Part shown: in pieces, positions 4,718-11,452 of the stretch
Layout of the letters: the number at the start of each line of letters is the position of its first letter
Numbering within the stretch: position 1 is the first letter of the stretch
NCBI GenBank assembly: GCA_020072765.1
Contig: JAIQGD010000020.1
Location: forward strand, 40,870-74,637
Origin: Terriglobia bacterium
GTDB taxonomy: Bacteria; Acidobacteriota; Terriglobia; Acidiferrales; UBA7541
Reading direction: 5' to 3'
DNA: 33,768 nucleotides
Translations under genes and position numbers: made by a program
Notes under the pieces: model-generated
What the model was told of the DNA's origin: nothing
Databases searched by the model: none
The model's input: only the letters and a program-made list of their open reading frames with translations

Positions 4718-6649
4718 ATGGACACCATTCAGATAACACTGCCGGACGGCGCGACGCGCCAGGTAGCTCGGGGAACCACCGCGGCCCAGATCGCGAGCCA
4801 GATTTCGCCGCGCTTGGCGAAGGAGGCGCTGGTGGCGCGCGCCGATGGCGAATTGGTGGATCTTTCGCAGCCGCTGGAGCGCGACGTCAAGCTTTCTATT
4901 CTGACGGCGAAAGAGCCGGATGCCGTGCAGGTGTTCCGCCATTCGGCGGCGCACTTGATGGCCGCCGCGGTGCTCGAGCTGTATCCCAACGTGAAGCTGG
5001 GCGTCGGCCCGCCCACCGACAGCGGCTTCTTCTACGAATTTCTGCGTCCGGAGCCTTTCACTCCCGAAGACCTCGAAACGATCGAGGCCAAGATGCGCGA
5101 GCTGGCCGCCCGCGACATTCCCAACGAGCGCAAGATGCTGCCCAAGCCCGAGGCCGTCGAGCTCTATCGCCAGAGCCGGCAGGAATTCAAATGCGAGCTG
5201 GTGGAGGAGAAGGCCGTCGAGCCGATGGTGTCGTTTTACACCACGGGAAAATTCATCGACTTCTGCCGCGGGCCGCACATTCCTTCCACCGGCCGGATCA
5301 AGGCGTTCAAGCTGATGAGCGTGGCGGGCGCGTACTGGAAGGGCCAGGAAGGCAATCCGCAGATGCAGCGGATTTACGGCGCCTGCTTCATCGAACCCAA
5401 AGAGCTCGAGGAATACCTGCACAAGCTCGAAGAGGCCAAGCGCCGCGACCATCGCAAGCTCGGCGCGGAGCTCGATCTGTTCAGCATCGAGGAGGAAGCC
5501 GGGCCGGGGCTGATTTTCTGGCATCCCAAGGGCGGCGTGATCCGCCGGCAGATGGAGGACTGGCTGCGCGCCGAGCTGACGCGCCATGGCTACGACCTGG
5601 TTTACACGCCGCACGTCATGCGCTTGGACCTGTGGAAGACCAGCGGCCACGCCAATTTTTACCGCGAAAATATGTTCGGCGCGATCGAAGTGGAAAACGC
5701 CGAATACCAGCTCAAGCCCATGAACTGCCCGGGCCACATCCTGATCTACAAATCGCGCCTGCGGAGCTATCGCGAGCTGCCCATCCGCCTGGCCGAGCTG
5801 GGCACGGTCTACCGCTTCGAGCGGTCGGGCGTGCTGCACGGACTGATGCGCGTGCGCGGTTTTACGCAGGATGACGCGCACATCTTCTGCATGCCGGAGC
5901 AGATCGAGCGCGAAGTGCAGGACTGTATCGAGTTTGCCTGGGAAGTGCTGCGCGTCTTCGGTTTCGACCGGTACGAAGTGGAGCTTTCCGGAGGCGATCC
6001 GGCGCGCCCGCAGGACTACGCGGGGACCGCCGAGGAGTGGAAACGCGCCGAGGATGCGCTCACCGGCACGCTGCAGCGCATGAACGTGCCGTACAAATAC
6101 ATGCCGGGCGAAGCGGCGTTCTACGGGCCGAAGATCGACGTCAAGCTGGTGGACGCGATCGGCCGCCCGTGGCAGCTTACGACCGTACAATTCGATTTCA
6201 ACCTGCCAGGGCGCTTCAAGCTGGAGTACGTGGGCGAGGACGGTTCGCGCCACCAGCCGCTAATGGTTCACCGGGCGCTGTGGGGATCGGTGGAGCGTTT
6301 TTTCGGCGTGCTGATCGAGCATTACGCGGGCGCGTTTCCCGCGTGGCTCGCTCCCGTGCAGGTTGCCGTGCTGCCGGTGAGCGGAAAATTCGAGGAGTAC
6401 GCCAAGAAGGTGACCCAGCAATTGAAGGACGCCGGCTTCCGCGTGCGTCACGACGACCGCAACGAGAAGCTGCAGGCGAAAATCCGCGACGCGCAACTGG
6501 AAAAAATCCCCTACATGCTGATCCTCGGTGGCAAGGAAGCCGAGGCCGGCACCGTGTCGGTCCGGCATCGCAGCAAGGGCGATCTGGGGCCGCGTCCGGC
6601 CGAAGAGTTCATCGCCGACCTGCGCCGGGAGGTGGATTCACGCGCTTAG
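4718..6649 (+). CDS. thrS: Threonine-tRNA ligase
   Basis: Charges tRNA-Thr with threonine in the cytoplasm. The 643 residues give the full bacterial architecture: TGS domain (1-63), editing domain with HSAAH (H75, H79), class II catalytic core (about 240-540), and C-terminal anticodon-binding domain (about 545-640). The catalytic zinc ligands are C337 (NCPGH), H388 (DDAHIFC) and H518 (MVHRAL). Upstream 4681-4711 has two small dyads (GTAAG/CTTAC and TTCG/CGAA). I see no T-box features and no clear Shine-Dalgarno. A weak TTGCAC-17-TAAGCT pair (4659-4687) may be its promoter. The next gene begins 19 bases after the stop, so thrS probably reads through into the inserted oxidoreductase cassette. 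Confidence 0.97.
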   Translation: MDTIQITLPDGATRQVARGTTAAQIASQISPRLAKEALVARADGELVDLSQPLERDVKLSILTAKEPDAVQVFRHSAAHLMAAAVLELYPNVKLGVGPPTDSGFFYEFLRPEPFTPEDLETIEAKMRELAARDIPNERKMLPKPEAVELYRQSRQEFKCELVEEKAVEPMVSFYTTGKFIDFCRGPHIPSTGRIKAFKLMSVAGAYWKGQEGNPQMQRIYGACFIEPKELEEYLHKLEEAKRRDHRKLGAELDLFSIEEEAGPGLIFWHPKGGVIRRQMEDWLRAELTRHGYDLVYTPHVMRLDLWKTSGHANFYRENMFGAIEVENAEYQLKPMNCPGHILIYKSRLRSYRELPIRLAELGTVYRFERSGVLHGLMRVRGFTQDDAHIFCMPEQIEREVQDCIEFAWEVLRVFGFDRYEVELSGGDPARPQDYAGTAEEWKRAEDALTGTLQRMNVPYKYMPGEAAFYGPKIDVKLVDAIGRPWQLTTVQFDFNLPGRFKLEYVGEDGSRHQPLMVHRALWGSVERFFGVLIEHYAGAFPAWLAPVQVAVLPVSGKFEEYAKKVTQQLKDAGFRVRHDDRNEKLQAKIRDAQLEKIPYMLILGGKEAEAGTVSVRHRSKGDLGPRPAEEFIADLRREVDSRA

Positions 6650-6668
6650 CGGTAAGAATGGAGCGGAC

Positions 6669-7712
6669 ATGAAGCTTTCGTACGCATGTAAAGCCGGGTT
6701 CGCGCTGGTCTTCAGTTTGGCAGTGTTCCACGGAAGTACCTCCTACGCTCGACAACCTCAACAGACGAACGCGCCGCGCGCTTGGGATGCGTCGCGGGTC
6801 AAGCCGTGCGACCGCGCCTGTCTGATTGGGATCATGGACGGCTACATGAACGCCGTCTTCCAGCATGATCCCAAGGCCGTGCCGCTGCTGGCGCTGGACG
6901 TCCGCATGACGGAAAACACCGGGCAGATCGATGTCGGCGAGGGACTCCTGTGGCGGGCGAAGGTCGAGCCGACCAGTTTCAAAATCTACGTGGCCGATCC
7001 GGTGGAAGGCCAGGTGGCCGAGCAGGCGCGCTTGAAAATTCAGGGTCAGGATGCGCTGGTGGCGGTGCGCTTGAAGATCGACCGCGGGAAGATTCTGGAG
7101 ATCGAGCAACTCTGGGATCGCATCATCAATGCGGCCGCCATCCCCCTGCTGACGACGCCCCGGCAGACGTTGGTGAACGACATACCTGTTTCGCAGAGGG
7201 ACTCGCGCGAGATTTTGATTGCCGCGGCCAACTCGTACTTCGACGCGCTGGAGGGCGATGACGGCAAGATCGCGGCGTTTGCCGACGATTGCGTGCGGCA
7301 CGAGAATGGCTATCAGACGGTGAACAATCCGCCGCCGGGAGGGCGGATGATGCCCGCCCCGATGCTTCCGAATCCGGAGACCGAGCAGGGCAAGGCCCAG
7401 CTCAAGTTCAGCATGATGACGTGCGAGCAGCAGGTTTCCAGCAAGACGTTCGCCTACATGAAACACATCCGTCCGCGGCGGGCGCTGATTATCGACGAAC
7501 AGAAGGGTTTGGTGGCGACGTTCCCGTTGTTCGTCCACGACGGGACGCGGCGCGGCGCTCCGGCGGACGCGCCTCCGAGCATGCTGCAGAATCTGGTGAC
7601 CATGGAGACCTTCGGAATTCGCGCCGGCCGTATCCACGAAGTGGAAGCATTCCCGTTCGTCACCATTCCGTACGGGCTGGGCAACGGCTGGACGCCGGGT
7701 TCAGGCCGCTGA
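6669..7712 (+). CDS. Exported protein with two NTF2-like repeats (paralog 1)
   Basis: A 347-residue secreted or periplasmic protein of unknown function. Residues 1-27 form a Sec signal peptide ending SYA. The mature protein starts with a CDRACL motif (C47, C51) followed by IMDGYMNAVFQHDPKAVPL and a TEN turn. A related pattern recurs in the second half (AAANSYFDALEGDDGKIAAF, then CVRHENGYQTVNNP). I read this as two tandem cone-shaped NTF2/SnoaL-like domains. It may belong to the DUF8021-type proteins, but I cannot verify that here. The ATG at 6669 has GGAG six bases upstream. It is a clear paralog of the next gene (shared Cys pair, HDPK, NNP), so the two arose by tandem duplication. A small-molecule binding or accessory role to the PQQ dehydrogenase downstream is inferred from position. 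Confidence 0.7.
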   Translation: MKLSYACKAGFALVFSLAVFHGSTSYARQPQQTNAPRAWDASRVKPCDRACLIGIMDGYMNAVFQHDPKAVPLLALDVRMTENTGQIDVGEGLLWRAKVEPTSFKIYVADPVEGQVAEQARLKIQGQDALVAVRLKIDRGKILEIEQLWDRIINAAAIPLLTTPRQTLVNDIPVSQRDSREILIAAANSYFDALEGDDGKIAAFADDCVRHENGYQTVNNPPPGGRMMPAPMLPNPETEQGKAQLKFSMMTCEQQVSSKTFAYMKHIRPRRALIIDEQKGLVATFPLFVHDGTRRGAPADAPPSMLQNLVTMETFGIRAGRIHEVEAFPFVTIPYGLGNGWTPGSGR

Positions 7713-7742
7713 TCGCGGCAACGGACGGGCAGGAGAAAATCG

Positions 7743-8738
7743 ATGCGAACAAAGTTTCTCATCCTGGGCGCAACCGTTTGTTTGGCGGCGGGCATCCTGG
7801 CCGGCTATTTCAGCCCGGCGGTGTCCGCTACAGGCCCCATTCCCGTTGATTGCAGCCGCGCCTGCCTGGAAGGCCTGGTGGACCAGTATCTGGCGGCGGT
7901 TGTGGCGCACGACCCGAAGCGGCTGCCTCTCGCCGCCGACGTCAAGTACACCGAGAACGACCAGGTGATGGATGTGGGCGATGGCTTCTGGGGCACGGCC
8001 ACCGCGGTCGGCGGCTACAAGCACTGCTTCGCGGACCCCGTCACCGCTCAGATCGGCTGCCTGGTTACCATGCATGAAGGCGACCACGGCTTGATCATGG
8101 GCATGCGCCTGCGGGTGCAGCTGGGCCGCATCACGGAGATCGAGACGACCTACTATCGGCAGGGTGGCGGGGGTCCCTCCAACATCGCCGGACTCGACAC
8201 GAGCCAGCCGGAGCCGCTGTGGTTCGATGCCGTGCCGCCGGCGCAGCGCGTTTCGCGCCAGCAGTTGATCGCGACCGCCAACATGTACTTCGCGGGGTTG
8301 GAGAACAACGACGGGAAAGGCGTCTACCCGTTCAGCGACGATTGCGACCGCATGGAAAATGGCATCCACACGACGAACAATCCGACCGTGTCACCGAACG
8401 CCCCGTTCAATGCCTTTGCGCTGGGTTGCAAGGCGCAGTTCGAGAGCGGCTACTACGCCATCGTCACGCGCGTTCACCACCGCCGGTTCCCGATCGTGGA
8501 TGAAGAGCGCGGGATTGTGTGGGCCTGCGTGATCTTCGATCAAAACGGCACGGTCCAGACCATCAAGCTGACCAACGGCAACACCGTCTCGATGAAGAAT
8601 TTCAACCGGCCCTCCAGCCTCGAAGTCACCGAAGCGTTCAAAATTGAAAACGGCAAAATCCGCCGCATCGAAATGGTGGGGTCCGGCTTGCCCTATCATC
8701 TGAATCCCGCCTGGGACGGTGGGGTCAGCGACCGGTAA
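7743..8738 (+). CDS. Exported protein with two NTF2-like repeats (paralog 2)
   Basis: A 331-residue exported paralog of the preceding gene. It has a signal peptide (residues 1-29, ending VSA), then CSRACLEG (C37, C41), VDQYLAAVVAHDPKRLPL and TEN. The second half-repeat has ATANMYFAGLENNDGKGVYPF and ENGIHTTNNP. Unlike paralog 1 it has extra cysteines in the first domain (KHCFADP, IGCLV), which may form a disulfide. The ATG at 7743 is supported by AGGAG at 7731-7735. It lies 30 bases after paralog 1 and 24 bases before the quinoprotein, so all three are probably one transcript. Function is unknown; any enzymatic activity would be a guess. Confidence 0.7.
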   Translation: MRTKFLILGATVCLAAGILAGYFSPAVSATGPIPVDCSRACLEGLVDQYLAAVVAHDPKRLPLAADVKYTENDQVMDVGDGFWGTATAVGGYKHCFADPVTAQIGCLVTMHEGDHGLIMGMRLRVQLGRITEIETTYYRQGGGGPSNIAGLDTSQPEPLWFDAVPPAQRVSRQQLIATANMYFAGLENNDGKGVYPFSDDCDRMENGIHTTNNPTVSPNAPFNAFALGCKAQFESGYYAIVTRVHHRRFPIVDEERGIVWACVIFDQNGTVQTIKLTNGNTVSMKNFNRPSSLEVTEAFKIENGKIRRIEMVGSGLPYHLNPAWDGGVSDR

Positions 8739-8762
8739 GCCGCAGTCGAGGGGACATCCGCC

Positions 8763-10664
8763 ATGATAAGAAACAATCTGCGCGCCGTGGCACTAACTTC
8801 CGCCGGACTTTTGGGCTGCTTGGTCGGCGCTGGTGCGATGTTGGCGCAAGCTCCCGCGCAAACACAAGCCCCGGCAAAGCCTCCGGCTCCCGCAACCGTC
8901 CCCGCTTCGGGAACCGAATCGGGCATCGCCGTATTCCAGCAGCGCTGCATGAGCTGTCACGGCAATCCGAATGTGGACCGCGCTCCTTCTCCTGCGGTGA
9001 TCCGGGAGATGTCCCCGGAGCGCATCTATGGGGCGCTGACCACCGGCCTGATGAAGGGTGAAGGCGACAGCCTCACGGAAGACCAGAAGCGCATGCTGGC
9101 CACGTTTTTGAGCGGGCGGCCGCTGGGCAGTTTGCACCAGGGCGCCGCCAAGGACATGCCGAACCGCTGCGAGACGAATCCCGCACTGGCGAATCCCGCC
9201 GCTGGACCCTCGTGGAACGGATGGGGCGCGGACATGGCCAATACGCGCTATCAGAGCGCCGCGGCCGCCGGCCTGACCGCCGAGCAGGTGCCGCACCTGA
9301 AACTCAAATGGGCGTTCGGCTATCCCACGGGATTGTCCGCGTTTGGGCCGGTGGCGGTCGTTTCCGGACGCGTGTTCGTGGGCACGGATATTGGTTACAT
9401 GTATTCGTTGAACGCGCAGACCGGGTGCGTCTACTGGTCGTATCAGACGAAGGGCTCAGTGCGCACCGCGGTCACCGTGAGTCGCGTCAAGGGGCATGGC
9501 CGAACCCAATACGCGGCCTATTTCGGCGATGCCCATGCCAATGTGTACGCCGTGGATGCGCAGGACGGCCGGCTATTGTGGGCCGCGAAAGTGGACGATC
9601 ACTTTGTCGCGCGCATCACCGGAGCGCCCAAGGTTTATAACGGCCGGGTGTACGTCCCGGTGTCATCCTCGGAGGAGTATTCGGGTTCGTCGATTGATTA
9701 TCCGTGCTGCACGTCGCGCGGAAGCGTTGTCGCGCTCGATGCCAACACGGGCGCGACGATCTGGAAGACCTACGTGGTGGACGAACCCAAGCCCACGCGG
9801 AAGAATTCCAAGGGCGTGCAGCTGTATGCGCCCGCCGGAGGCTCGGTGTGGGATTCCCCCACCATTGACGTCCGGCGCAATGCGATTTACTTCGGCACCG
9901 GAGATGCGGAAACCGAGCCGGCCCCGGAAACCACCGACGCCGTGATGGCGCTGGATTTGAAGACCGGCAAAGTTCTCTGGGTGTACCAGACGCAGGCGAA
10001 CGACGCGTTTTTGGGAGGATGCAACGGCGCGACGCGGACGGACAATTGCCCGTCGGTGAACGGTCCGGATCAGGACGTCGGCAATTCGCCCATCCTGCGG
10101 GCATTGCCCGGCGGTAAAAGCGTGGTCGTTGTGGGAACCAAGAATGGGAGAGTCTTCGCTCTGGATCCGGACCGCAAAGGCGCGCTCGTCTGGAAAGCCA
10201 GCGTGGCCCCGCCGCCGGAAGACCCGCAGAACCGGCTGGCGACGCTGCTGAACGGAATCGTCTGGGGCGGCGCGGCCGATGAGCGAAATCTGTACTACGG
10301 CTTGCAGGCCGGCGGCGTGGTGGCGCTCGACCTGGCAACCGGAGAGCGCCGGTGGTACGCAACCTTTGGCAAGCCGGCGGGCGCGCGCGTGTCGAACTCC
10401 GCCGCGGCTTCGGCCATACCCGGCGTTGTCTTCGCGGCCGGATCGGACGGAAAGCTGCACGCCGTGGCGGCCGCCGATGGCCGCATTCTGTGGGAATACG
10501 ACACGGCGCGGAACTTCGAGACGGTCAACAAGGTTCCGGCGAAGGGCGGCGCCATCAACTCGGTAGGTCCCAGCGTGGCGGGCGGGATGGTTTTCGTGGG
10601 CTCGGGCTACGCCGTCACGGGGACCAATTCGGGCAACGCGCTCCTGGCGTTCTCAGTCGAATAG
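8763..10664 (+). CDS. Cytochrome c-PQQ dehydrogenase, polyvinyl alcohol dehydrogenase-like
   Basis: A 633-residue exported quinohemoprotein. In order: signal peptide (about 1-29), a Pro/Ala-rich linker, a cytochrome c domain with CMSCH (62-66) and a nearby Met (EMSPERIY), then a PQQ beta-propeller from about residue 150 to the end. The propeller shows repeated blade motifs such as VYAVDAQDGRLLW, VVALDANTGATIW, VMALDLKTGKVLW and VVALDLATGERRW. Adjacent cysteines C315-C316 (YPCCTSRGS) are typical of polyvinyl alcohol dehydrogenase-like members. It should oxidise an alcohol in the periplasm and pass electrons through its heme. The substrate is unknown, and no pqq synthesis genes are in the window. 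A Shine-Dalgarno-like GAGGGG lies at 8748-8753. It is the last gene of a cassette inserted between thrS and infC. Confidence 0.85.
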   Translation: MIRNNLRAVALTSAGLLGCLVGAGAMLAQAPAQTQAPAKPPAPATVPASGTESGIAVFQQRCMSCHGNPNVDRAPSPAVIREMSPERIYGALTTGLMKGEGDSLTEDQKRMLATFLSGRPLGSLHQGAAKDMPNRCETNPALANPAAGPSWNGWGADMANTRYQSAAAAGLTAEQVPHLKLKWAFGYPTGLSAFGPVAVVSGRVFVGTDIGYMYSLNAQTGCVYWSYQTKGSVRTAVTVSRVKGHGRTQYAAYFGDAHANVYAVDAQDGRLLWAAKVDDHFVARITGAPKVYNGRVYVPVSSSEEYSGSSIDYPCCTSRGSVVALDANTGATIWKTYVVDEPKPTRKNSKGVQLYAPAGGSVWDSPTIDVRRNAIYFGTGDAETEPAPETTDAVMALDLKTGKVLWVYQTQANDAFLGGCNGATRTDNCPSVNGPDQDVGNSPILRALPGGKSVVVVGTKNGRVFALDPDRKGALVWKASVAPPPEDPQNRLATLLNGIVWGGAADERNLYYGLQAGGVVALDLATGERRWYATFGKPAGARVSNSAAASAIPGVVFAAGSDGKLHAVAAADGRILWEYDTARNFETVNKVPAKGGAINSVGPSVAGGMVFVGSGYAVTGTNSGNALLAFSVE

Positions 10665-10699
10665 GGACTAAACCCTTAGCCCGAACTGCTCACAAGAGC

Positions 10700-10737
10700 G
10701 CCGGTGGCAAGTCAACCGGGCCACCGGCGGGCGTTTC
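10700..10737 (+). terminator. Candidate terminator after the quinoprotein gene
   Basis: GCCGGTGGC (10700-10708) pairs perfectly with GCCACCGGC (10720-10728) around an 11-base loop, followed by GGGCGTTTC. The uridine run is short, so termination may be partial. It separates the cassette from the infC promoter. Confidence 0.5.
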
Positions 10738-10770
10738 AACAGCCCTGTTGCATCATCCCGGCCCGGGCCG

Positions 10771-10779
10771 TGCTATACT
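10771..10779 (+). promoter_or_regulatory. infC operon promoter, extended -10
   Basis: TGCTATACT at 10771-10779 is an extended -10 (TG-n-TATACT). The best -35, TTGCAT at 10748-10753, has a long 20-base spacer, which extended -10 promoters tolerate. Predicted +1 is near 10786, leaving a leader of about 88 bases before the infC start. Confidence 0.55.
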
Positions 10780-10861
10780 TTCTACCTCGTCTCCCCAGCC
10801 CCGGCTTCTTGCGGGTGGGAGGACGGCCCAGTGGGTGGCGCAGAGGGATGGCGCGGGCCCC

Positions 10862-10876
10862 GGAGGTGGGTTTATC
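10862..10876 (+). promoter_or_regulatory. Start-deciding Shine-Dalgarno with AUC start codon for infC
   Basis: GGAGGT (10862-10867) is a perfect Shine-Dalgarno. Six bases later comes ATC (10874-10876) in frame with IF-3. No ATG, GTG or TTG lies in frame between this site and the conserved RVNERIRAREV segment. Confidence 0.7.
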
Positions 10877-11452
10877 GCAGAGCGAGGCGGGAGCGGGAGC
10901 GCGTACCGGGTTAACGAGCGCATACGCGCACGGGAAGTCCGGGTGATTGATGACGCGGGGACTCAGCTAGGGGTCATGACCCTGTTCGACGCCATGAAGA
11001 TGGCGCGGGACGGGGGCCTCGATGTGGTGGAAATCTCGCCGACCGCCGTGCCACCGGTCTGCAAGCTGACCGACTACGGCAAGTTCCTGTACGAGCAGAA
11101 GAAGAAGGGCCACGAGGCCAAGAAGCATCAGAAGAGTTCGCACATCAAGGAAGTGAAGTTCCGGCCTTCCACCGCCGAGCACGATTATCAGGTGCGCAAG
11201 AACCAGATCATCCGGTTCCTCGGCGAGGGGCACAAAGTGAAGGCCATGATTTTCCATCGCGGGCGCGAAATGGCGCACCAGGACGTCGGCCGCGCGAAGA
11301 TGGAACGGCTGCTCAAGGAAGTGGGCGAGCATGCCCTGGTGGAGTTTGGGCCGCGGATGGAGGCGAATATCCTCCTGGCCCTGCTGGCACCGAAAAAAGG
11401 CGCGGTAGCGCCGGCACGTCCTGCCCAGCCCGCGGCGGGCACCGAGGCGTAA
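10874..11452 (+). CDS. infC: Translation initiation factor IF-3
   Basis: IF-3 binds the 30S subunit, blocks premature 50S joining and proofreads start codons. The 192-residue product has the IF-3 N-domain (RVNERIRAREVRVIDDAGTQ to VCKLTDYGKFLYEQ, about 12-80) with the signature PPVCKLTDYGKFLYE, a lysine-rich linker helix, and the C-domain (KEVKFRPSTAEHDYQ to the end). I place the start at an AUC codon. infC genes commonly use AUU or a similar rare codon, so that IF-3 represses its own translation by rejecting the codon. An Ala/Pro-rich tail follows LLALLAPKK. It begins the infC-rpmI-rplT block under its own promoter. Confidence 0.95.
   Translation: MAERGGSGSAYRVNERIRAREVRVIDDAGTQLGVMTLFDAMKMARDGGLDVVEISPTAVPPVCKLTDYGKFLYEQKKKGHEAKKHQKSSHIKEVKFRPSTAEHDYQVRKNQIIRFLGEGHKVKAMIFHRGREMAHQDVGRAKMERLLKEVGEHALVEFGPRMEANILLALLAPKKGAVAPARPAQPAAGTEA

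Follow-up and report, generated by a model that had tools for sequence, protein, structure and literature searches.

An exported double-NTF2 protein family and its quinohemoprotein neighbour in a genus of Acidobacteriota

The genes between thrS and infC

A stretch of 33,768 nucleotides of Terriglobia bacterium DNA (positions 40,870 to 74,637 of contig JAIQGD010000020.1, GenBank assembly GCA_020072765.1; hereafter, the window) carries three genes, here called A, B and C, that lie in the same direction between thrS and infC and are the subject of this paper. A (6669..7712, starting at ATG) and B (7743..8738), of 347 and 331 residues, belong to one family of exported double-NTF2 proteins, and C (8763..10664, 633 residues) joins an N-terminal c-type cytochrome to a quinoprotein propeller resembling that of polyvinyl alcohol (PVA) dehydrogenase. 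The site is bounded on the left by thrS (4718..6649, an open reading frame (ORF) of 643 residues) and on the right by infC (10874..11452, with an apparent ATC start), all of these being on the forward strand. An initial annotation, made by a model from the letters of the window, had described a three-gene exported cassette in this position, and its ORFs are confirmed, as are the spacers of 19, 30 and 24 bp that precede A, B and C. How might two proteins of this kind serve a quinoprotein dehydrogenase, and how far does the partnership reach beyond one genus?

Each of the three spacers contains, by eye, a purine-rich stretch resembling a ribosome-binding site, and A, B and C each open with a hydrophobic, signal-like segment, also judged by eye. 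An alternative, longer frame for A, from GTG 6528, runs into thrS; the ATG at 6669 is preceded by GGAG. Ka/Ks, the ratio of nonsynonymous to synonymous substitution rates, is 0.09-0.22 for the three genes when they are compared with those of relatives L103 and L101, and A, B and C are therefore real, selected genes. (L-numbers denote fetched loci and G-numbers genomes, G000 being the window's own genome of 3.78 Mb in 152 contigs.)

The interval between C and infC holds a G+C-rich stem-loop (10700..10728), after which a fresh infC promoter had been supposed. The stem-loop folds well (z = -3.93 for the region 10660-10745), but it lacks a T tract and was not called as a terminator. A scan of 6600-10920 gave no promoter site of the sigma-70 type, so that the supposed promoter is not supported. 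The start of infC is itself worth recording: GGAGGT lies just upstream of the apparent ATC at 10874 (window stretch 10862-10913), and GGAGGT...ATCGC stands ahead of the conserved NERIR in all six genomes compared (the window's and those of L099, L102, L104, L120 and L203), an arrangement reminiscent of Escherichia coli, where infC starts at the rare codon AUU.

The double-NTF2 proteins and the quinohemoprotein

Neither A nor B matched a curated Pfam or NCBIfam model above its cut-off (for SnoaL_2, PF12680, B scored 14.5 bits against a gathering cut-off of 27 and A gave no match), and a search of the literature available found no paper on an exported double-NTF2 family. The family is new in the sense that the libraries searched contain no curated model of it; its kinds of domain, and the kind of protein that C is, were already known. 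B also gave a weak match to Csx28 (E 0.029), which the family profile did not reproduce.

The AlphaFold model of B, built on a 45-row alignment, has a mean predicted local distance difference test score (pLDDT) of 88.4 and consists of two alpha-plus-beta domains. Domain 1 superposes on chains of the NTF2/ketosteroid isomerase (KSI) fold with Z 10.7-11.3 and root-mean-square deviation (rmsd) 2.2-3.0 over 97-111 residues, among the 50 matches listed. The structural matches of the full model were confined to domain 1, and for this reason domain 2 was modelled separately (pLDDT 87.9), and among the 50 matches listed it superposes on KSI-like chains with Z 10.5-11.1 (KSI mostly at rmsd 2.4-3.1 over about 105-117 residues), so that both domains of B, each over its own length, have the NTF2/KSI fold in the model. 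The profiles of the two domains also match each other (hhalign probability 86.6%, P 4.5e-6, 99 columns), and B is therefore an internal duplication. Since A is 34% identical to B, it too probably has two KSI/NTF2-like domains; the early description of exported paralogs with a CxxxC motif and two NTF2-like domains thus stands as modelled for B and by likeness for A.

Two known systems share this architecture in part. KSI, a single-domain enzyme, resembles both B domains in fold (Z about 11), with 9-16% identity among the matches listed. The epoxide hydrolases of the Lsd19 type (PDB 3rga and 4rzm), which have two NTF2-like domains per chain (length 274-281), match domain 2 at Z 11.0 and 12% identity; they differ in serving lasalocid biosynthesis, as their PDB entry titles state.

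Residues were counted in the family sequences from loci fetched up to that point, 243 rows that reduce to 156 distinct sequences, to 146 with at least 270 residues and finally to 135 that are non-redundant at 90%. In B numbering, C37 and C41 (the CxxxC motif, 7851..7865), W83, R122, R203 and D253 are invariant in all 135, and Y182 (134), E71 (128), Y49 (122) and E205 (122) nearly so. Both residues of the pair Tyr49/Glu71 are kept in 115 sequences and both of Tyr182/Glu205 in 122. In 121 sequences, positions 201 and 229 (C201 and C229) each hold a Cys. By its motif, each pair is the putative counterpart of Tyr16/Asp40 in KSI, a Tyr and an acid that presumably occupy the equivalent motif in the isomerase and in B.

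For C, a PF13442 cytochrome c domain at residues 52-116 followed by PF01011/PF13360 propeller repeats bears out its earlier assignment as a cytochrome c-pyrroloquinoline quinone (PQQ) dehydrogenase type. Two more particular identities, the methanol/ethanol type (TIGR03075, 136.6 bits against a cut-off of 480.05) and the "empty quinoprotein" (TIGR04528, acido-empty-quinoprotein, 90.6 against 650), are ruled out by the NCBIfam cut-offs. Five matches in plasmid records cover at least 80% of C, the best being a protein of Aromatoleum aromaticum (38.3% over 92%) whose neighbours are functionally uninformative. The one among the five to which a function can be assigned, the PQQ protein on a plasmid of Sphingopyxis sp. 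113P3 (pvaA, L136; 36.5% over 91%), is encoded by a gene that overlaps by one base a match to oxidised PVA hydrolase (OPH; PDB 3wla, E 3.5e-189), and it is from this overlap that our label "PVA-dehydrogenase-like" derives. C and the Sphingopyxis protein have the same order of haem domain and propeller, and CXXCH, CCxxRG and NCP..GPD are common to both, to the Aromatoleum protein and to a second copy in the window's genome. Judged by its sequence, then, C is a PVA-dehydrogenase-like quinohemoprotein related to the Sphingopyxis enzyme over its length, an enzyme that oxidises a polymeric alcohol, which is in keeping with the alcohol- or polymer-oxidation module first suspected. The two loci are alike also in having a candidate product-processing gene directly upstream of the dehydrogenase, but in pvaA the partner is a hydrolase and in C the partners are double-NTF2 proteins. 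OPH is not beside C, whose neighbours are A/B and infC, and a search run without a positive control found none in the 20 genomes of the genus.

As to the supply of cofactor, pqqB of the window's genome scores above its cut-off, and pqqC matches above cut-off are present in relatives. In the window's genome, pqqC, just after pqqB, is split over two frames and lacks an internal stretch (L146 at about 7485-8056; G000:C137:19484-20055), a break that is possibly an assembly fault. By our own count this genome has 24 PF01011 genes, and at one place (G000:C96:10186-19508) four PQQ-propeller genes lie on one strand within 9.4 kb.

Distribution of the cassette and of the family

The counts that follow rest on tblastn, HMM or genome-search positions; simple gene callers overlooked some genes (the family gene of L058 among them) and produced spurious antisense ORFs. 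Of the 20 genomes of the genus, the window's own included, 12 have a B ortholog, and in all 12 C lies directly behind B. A precedes B in 10 of them (in G006 the genes are spread over two contigs, L132 and L120); G001 has B-C at the thrS site without A, and G018 has no A beside B, no search having been made there for a displaced copy.

The position of the cassette is less constant than its composition. In seven genomes (G000, G001, G003, G005, G006, G008 and G015) it lies between thrS and infC, a placement pieced together from two contigs each for G003, G006 and G008 and, in G015, seen on a contig that ends inside C. In the other five (G007, G009, G010, G014 and G018), thrS, a gene that we call D and infC follow one another without it (1.3 kb separates D from infC in G018), and A-B-C, or B-C in G018, is found elsewhere. 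The idea of an insertion fixed at thrS-infC has, therefore, to be abandoned. The thrS site is probably the older location, since the relocated copies fall among thrS-site copies on a tree of C; the thrS tree is poorly resolved and decides nothing about relocation. In G014 there is a further C, before which stands a 60-residue remnant of B.

Gene D encodes an exported protein of 207-209 residues (L099 6299-6922, L102 3687-4310, L107 5177-5800, L132 6124-6753) with nothing above cut-off in Pfam and no PDB match. In relatives with the cassette at the thrS site it sits between thrS and A or B, in gaps of 722-924 bp (L099, L102, L107 and L132). It is present in all 11 other genus genomes with the cassette and in none of the eight without, following thrS directly in 10 (thrS orthologs being 60-89% identical) and standing at the very start of its contig in G003. 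The window's genome has no match to D and has lost the gene, which explains why only 19 bp (6650..6668) separate thrS from A where relatives hold D.

Beyond the cassette, the family is large. An alignment search, with fragments counted, gave 13 matches in the window's genome, 14 in G001 and 22 in G009; in some soil Acidobacteria the family has expanded to more than 10 copies. Matches to B were found in 14 of 61 genomes (the window's included), at 5 to 34 per genome, and in a class-wide draw B was matched at E 1e-60 in 27 of 399 genomes and 6 of 136 genera. Family matches reach metagenome-assembled genomes (MAGs) titled Bryobacterales, Vicinamibacteria, Gammaproteobacteria and Caulobacteraceae, titles that may be wrong, as well as five plasmids of Novosphingobium or Croceicoccus. 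On a tree of 43 sequences, A forms one group and B another (support 100/100 each), and because these groups are not sisters we reject a recent tandem duplication as the origin of the pair: A falls with paralogs of the genus, and B groups with orthologs that come from other families and from MAGs whose titles name other phyla. PhcF and PhcG, once considered as relatives, were dropped because the PinX homolog carries a DUF3237 domain (PMC12607616 gives PinX this domain and 42% identity to PhcG and 38% to PhcF).

What lies beside the other copies? In three genomes chosen for assembly quality, the family genes fall into 10 (G000), 10 (G001) and 14 (G009) blocks, tandem genes counting as one block, and 2, 3 and 3 of these have a PQQ gene within 800 bp, where random placement, with the sizes of G001 and G009 rounded, would give 0.24, 0.27 and 0.30. 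(Weak partial matches G001:C8 and G000:C81 were retained, and the pieces of C47 in G009 were merged.) Three sorts of pairing are seen. One is A-B-C itself (in G001, B-C); in another, a fused double gene stands with a c-type cytochrome and a protein of the TIGR03075/TIGR04528 type; in the last, a single family gene is joined by a TIGR03075 enzyme that bears haem. These types were read from the copies in G000, G014 and G018, and the others were assigned by position or by our own profile; the fused gene of G000 is near a PQQ gene at 2.5 kb only, not at 800 bp. The fused genes, with two family units in one frame (L039 9696-11774; L062, L063 and L065), lie near PQQ-dehydrogenase genes, with a c-type cytochrome gene as well in L062, L063 and L065, of which L065 was scanned with Pfam. 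Outside the genus, TIGR03075-type dehydrogenases adjoin B in L109 and L117, and L119 has near B a propeller protein found with a profile based on C.

At the level of whole genomes, B and C tend to go together. In the class sample, a C-type match is present in 26 of the 27 genomes that have B, compared with 111 of all 399 (Fisher P 7e-15), and in family f7, B is present in all 7 genomes whose C match reaches 62%, against 4 of the 39 others with C (P 6e-6); these P values are overstated, because the 62% line was drawn post hoc with the data already seen, because the genomes are related and because two genomes of family f5 lack B.

What the cassette may do

The reading that we advance, tentatively and as one that falls somewhat short of probable, is that the cassette forms a periplasmic two-step module, in which C oxidises an alcohol and A/B then carry out a cofactor-free step on the carbonyl. 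On a bulky or polymeric substrate, C would turn a secondary alcohol into a ketone, the electrons leaving for the respiratory chain by way of the haem c that it carries. B, with A, would be an exported tandem enzyme of the KSI/NTF2 fold that needs no cofactor and acts on the carbonyl that C forms or on a precursor of it, enolisation being followed by isomerisation, dehydration or retro-aldol/deformylation; the candidate catalytic residues are the Tyr of helix 1 and the Glu at the end of strand 1, which in most members are retained in both domains. The partner in the pva operon hydrolyses the oxidised product, and A/B may occupy the place of that hydrolase. We favour B as the follow-on isomerase or lyase, because its fold does acid-base chemistry in KSI, LdpA and PcfL, and A as a second, looser partner, because A can lie apart from B-C. 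Plant-derived polyols or aromatic dimers as the substrate are guesses from the neighbours.

Several points weigh against this proposal, which was built from sequence and a structural model. No C-type gene lies near any of the 25 B loci from outside the genus (37 in all less the 12 of the genus), nor a family gene near any of the 16 C loci from outside it (7 at 62-72%, 9 at 51-59%), an absence that is weak evidence on several short contigs (L110, L119, L127 and L195). The co-occurrence of B and C follows related lineages, and two genomes of family f5, G072 (whose C match, at 64%, is partial) and G097 (61%), are without a B match. In G001, an A ortholog (84%) sits on another contig (L233 5833-6831, G001:C21), and the 12 kb taken there contain no C. 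Of the 34 blocks, 26 have no PQQ gene within 800 bp, and the pairings that do exist recur as orthologs, so that their counts are not independent. C itself is below the NCBIfam cut-offs both for PQQ alcohol dehydrogenases and for "empty quinoproteins," and with pqqC broken in this assembly, loading of PQQ in the window's genome is not certain. The equation of the Tyr/Glu pairs with Tyr16/Asp40 is a putative one made by motif, and profile searches of the PDB gave no match to a solved NTF2 enzyme (with the family profile, weak matches to other proteins, best E 0.17; with that of domain 1, none). The forecasts of the initial annotation come out of this divided. Conserved co-occurrence stands within the genus for B-C, and in 10 of 12 genomes for A, but not outside it; its proposed neighbourhood search does find paralogs beside PQQ dehydrogenases (8 of 34 blocks where about 0.8 were expected), though for the minority; and its undescribed alcohol- or polymer-oxidation module survives as a module of one genus with an uncurated family, not as a general pairing.

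The same observations can be read in other ways. One is that A/B are non-catalytic periplasmic proteins for binding or scaffolding, whose part would be to hold C's hydrophobic substrate or product, in line with the suggestion, a possible one, that the paralogs bind the substrate or shield its product. The NTF2 fold is well established as including binding proteins, the fused double copies of L039, L062, L063 and L065 resemble multivalent binders, and many copies per genome adjoin unrelated enzymes; yet the conserved polar residues presumably sit at the usual catalytic places of the fold, and the Tyr/Glu pairs, as far as residue conservation can speak, favour catalysis over binding or shielding. 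Lyases of this very fold, LdpA and PcfL, moreover act ahead of lignostilbene dioxygenases (PMC12997858, PMC11323797), and we consider the binding role rather unlikely.

Another way, which we hold to be unlikely, is that A/B and C are independent genes sharing a transcription unit in one genus and that the family has nothing to do with PQQ chemistry. Orthologs of B and C are not adjacent at the loci from outside the genus, A is not beside B in two genomes and is displaced in one of them (G001), and at selected loci the family adjoins genes as varied as a CarboxypepD_reg beta-barrel (an outer-membrane protein), PMT, AP_endonuc_2, NHL, DUF3738, DinB, GSDH and a beta-lactamase type. What such independence leaves unaccounted for is that B-C is intact in 12 of 12 genomes, cassettes located elsewhere included, that the family is repeatedly paired with two other types of PQQ dehydrogenase, and that B and C co-occur at the genome level.

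A broader comparison is with the degradation of lignin-derived compounds. According to PMC12997858 and PMC11323797, LdpA is an NTF2-superfamily enzyme that forms lignostilbene with loss of formaldehyde, and PcfL is its homolog, 44% identical. These gamma-formaldehyde lyases, with their lignostilbene dioxygenase, have the NTF2 fold in common with A/B, and some copies of our family are likewise near carotenoid-oxygenase-type genes; unlike them, the family is exported, two-domain and endowed with CxxxC. Their kinship found no support in the profile searches of PDB NTF2 enzymes, in a library whose inclusion of LdpA was not checked, and that LdpA is missing from the structural matches listed carries no information. 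It is doubtful that A/B are exported tandem-NTF2 lyases acting on alcohols or carbonyls from quinoprotein dehydrogenases or carotenoid-oxygenase-type enzymes, that is, a periplasmic counterpart of the LdpA/PcfL-lignostilbene dioxygenase route, by which aromatic dimers from plants are broken, or a pva operon in which a lyase replaces the hydrolase. We think it about as doubtful that the whole family consists of exported, LdpA/PcfL-like lyases that act in the periplasm on plant phenylpropanoid or lignin-derived dimers and are partnered by PQQ dehydrogenases or by dioxygenases of the carotenoid-oxygenase type: one family block in each of G000, G001 and G009 has an RPE65/PF03055 gene within 800 bp (and 5 of their 11 PF03055 genes are within 2.5 kb of a block), lignostilbene dioxygenases are carotenoid cleavage dioxygenases (PMC8191317), the oxygenase of L083 has, by eye, a signal like that of twin-arginine translocation, and in Novosphingobium a copy is found about 5.5 kb from pcaF, but the family has no detectable sequence kinship to any PDB NTF2 enzyme, PF03055 spans many substrates, and the oxygenase of L044, with no evident signal peptide, would not share a compartment with the exported family protein.

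Acidobacteria are abundant in soil, and some of them hold dozens of quinoproteins without a known substrate. The cassette is a genus-level combination of known kinds, in its domains and in C, with an uncurated family, and the question of what role that family plays is approachable with a few purified proteins. A family that recurs next to such dehydrogenases may thus offer a handle on the substrates of these quinoproteins.

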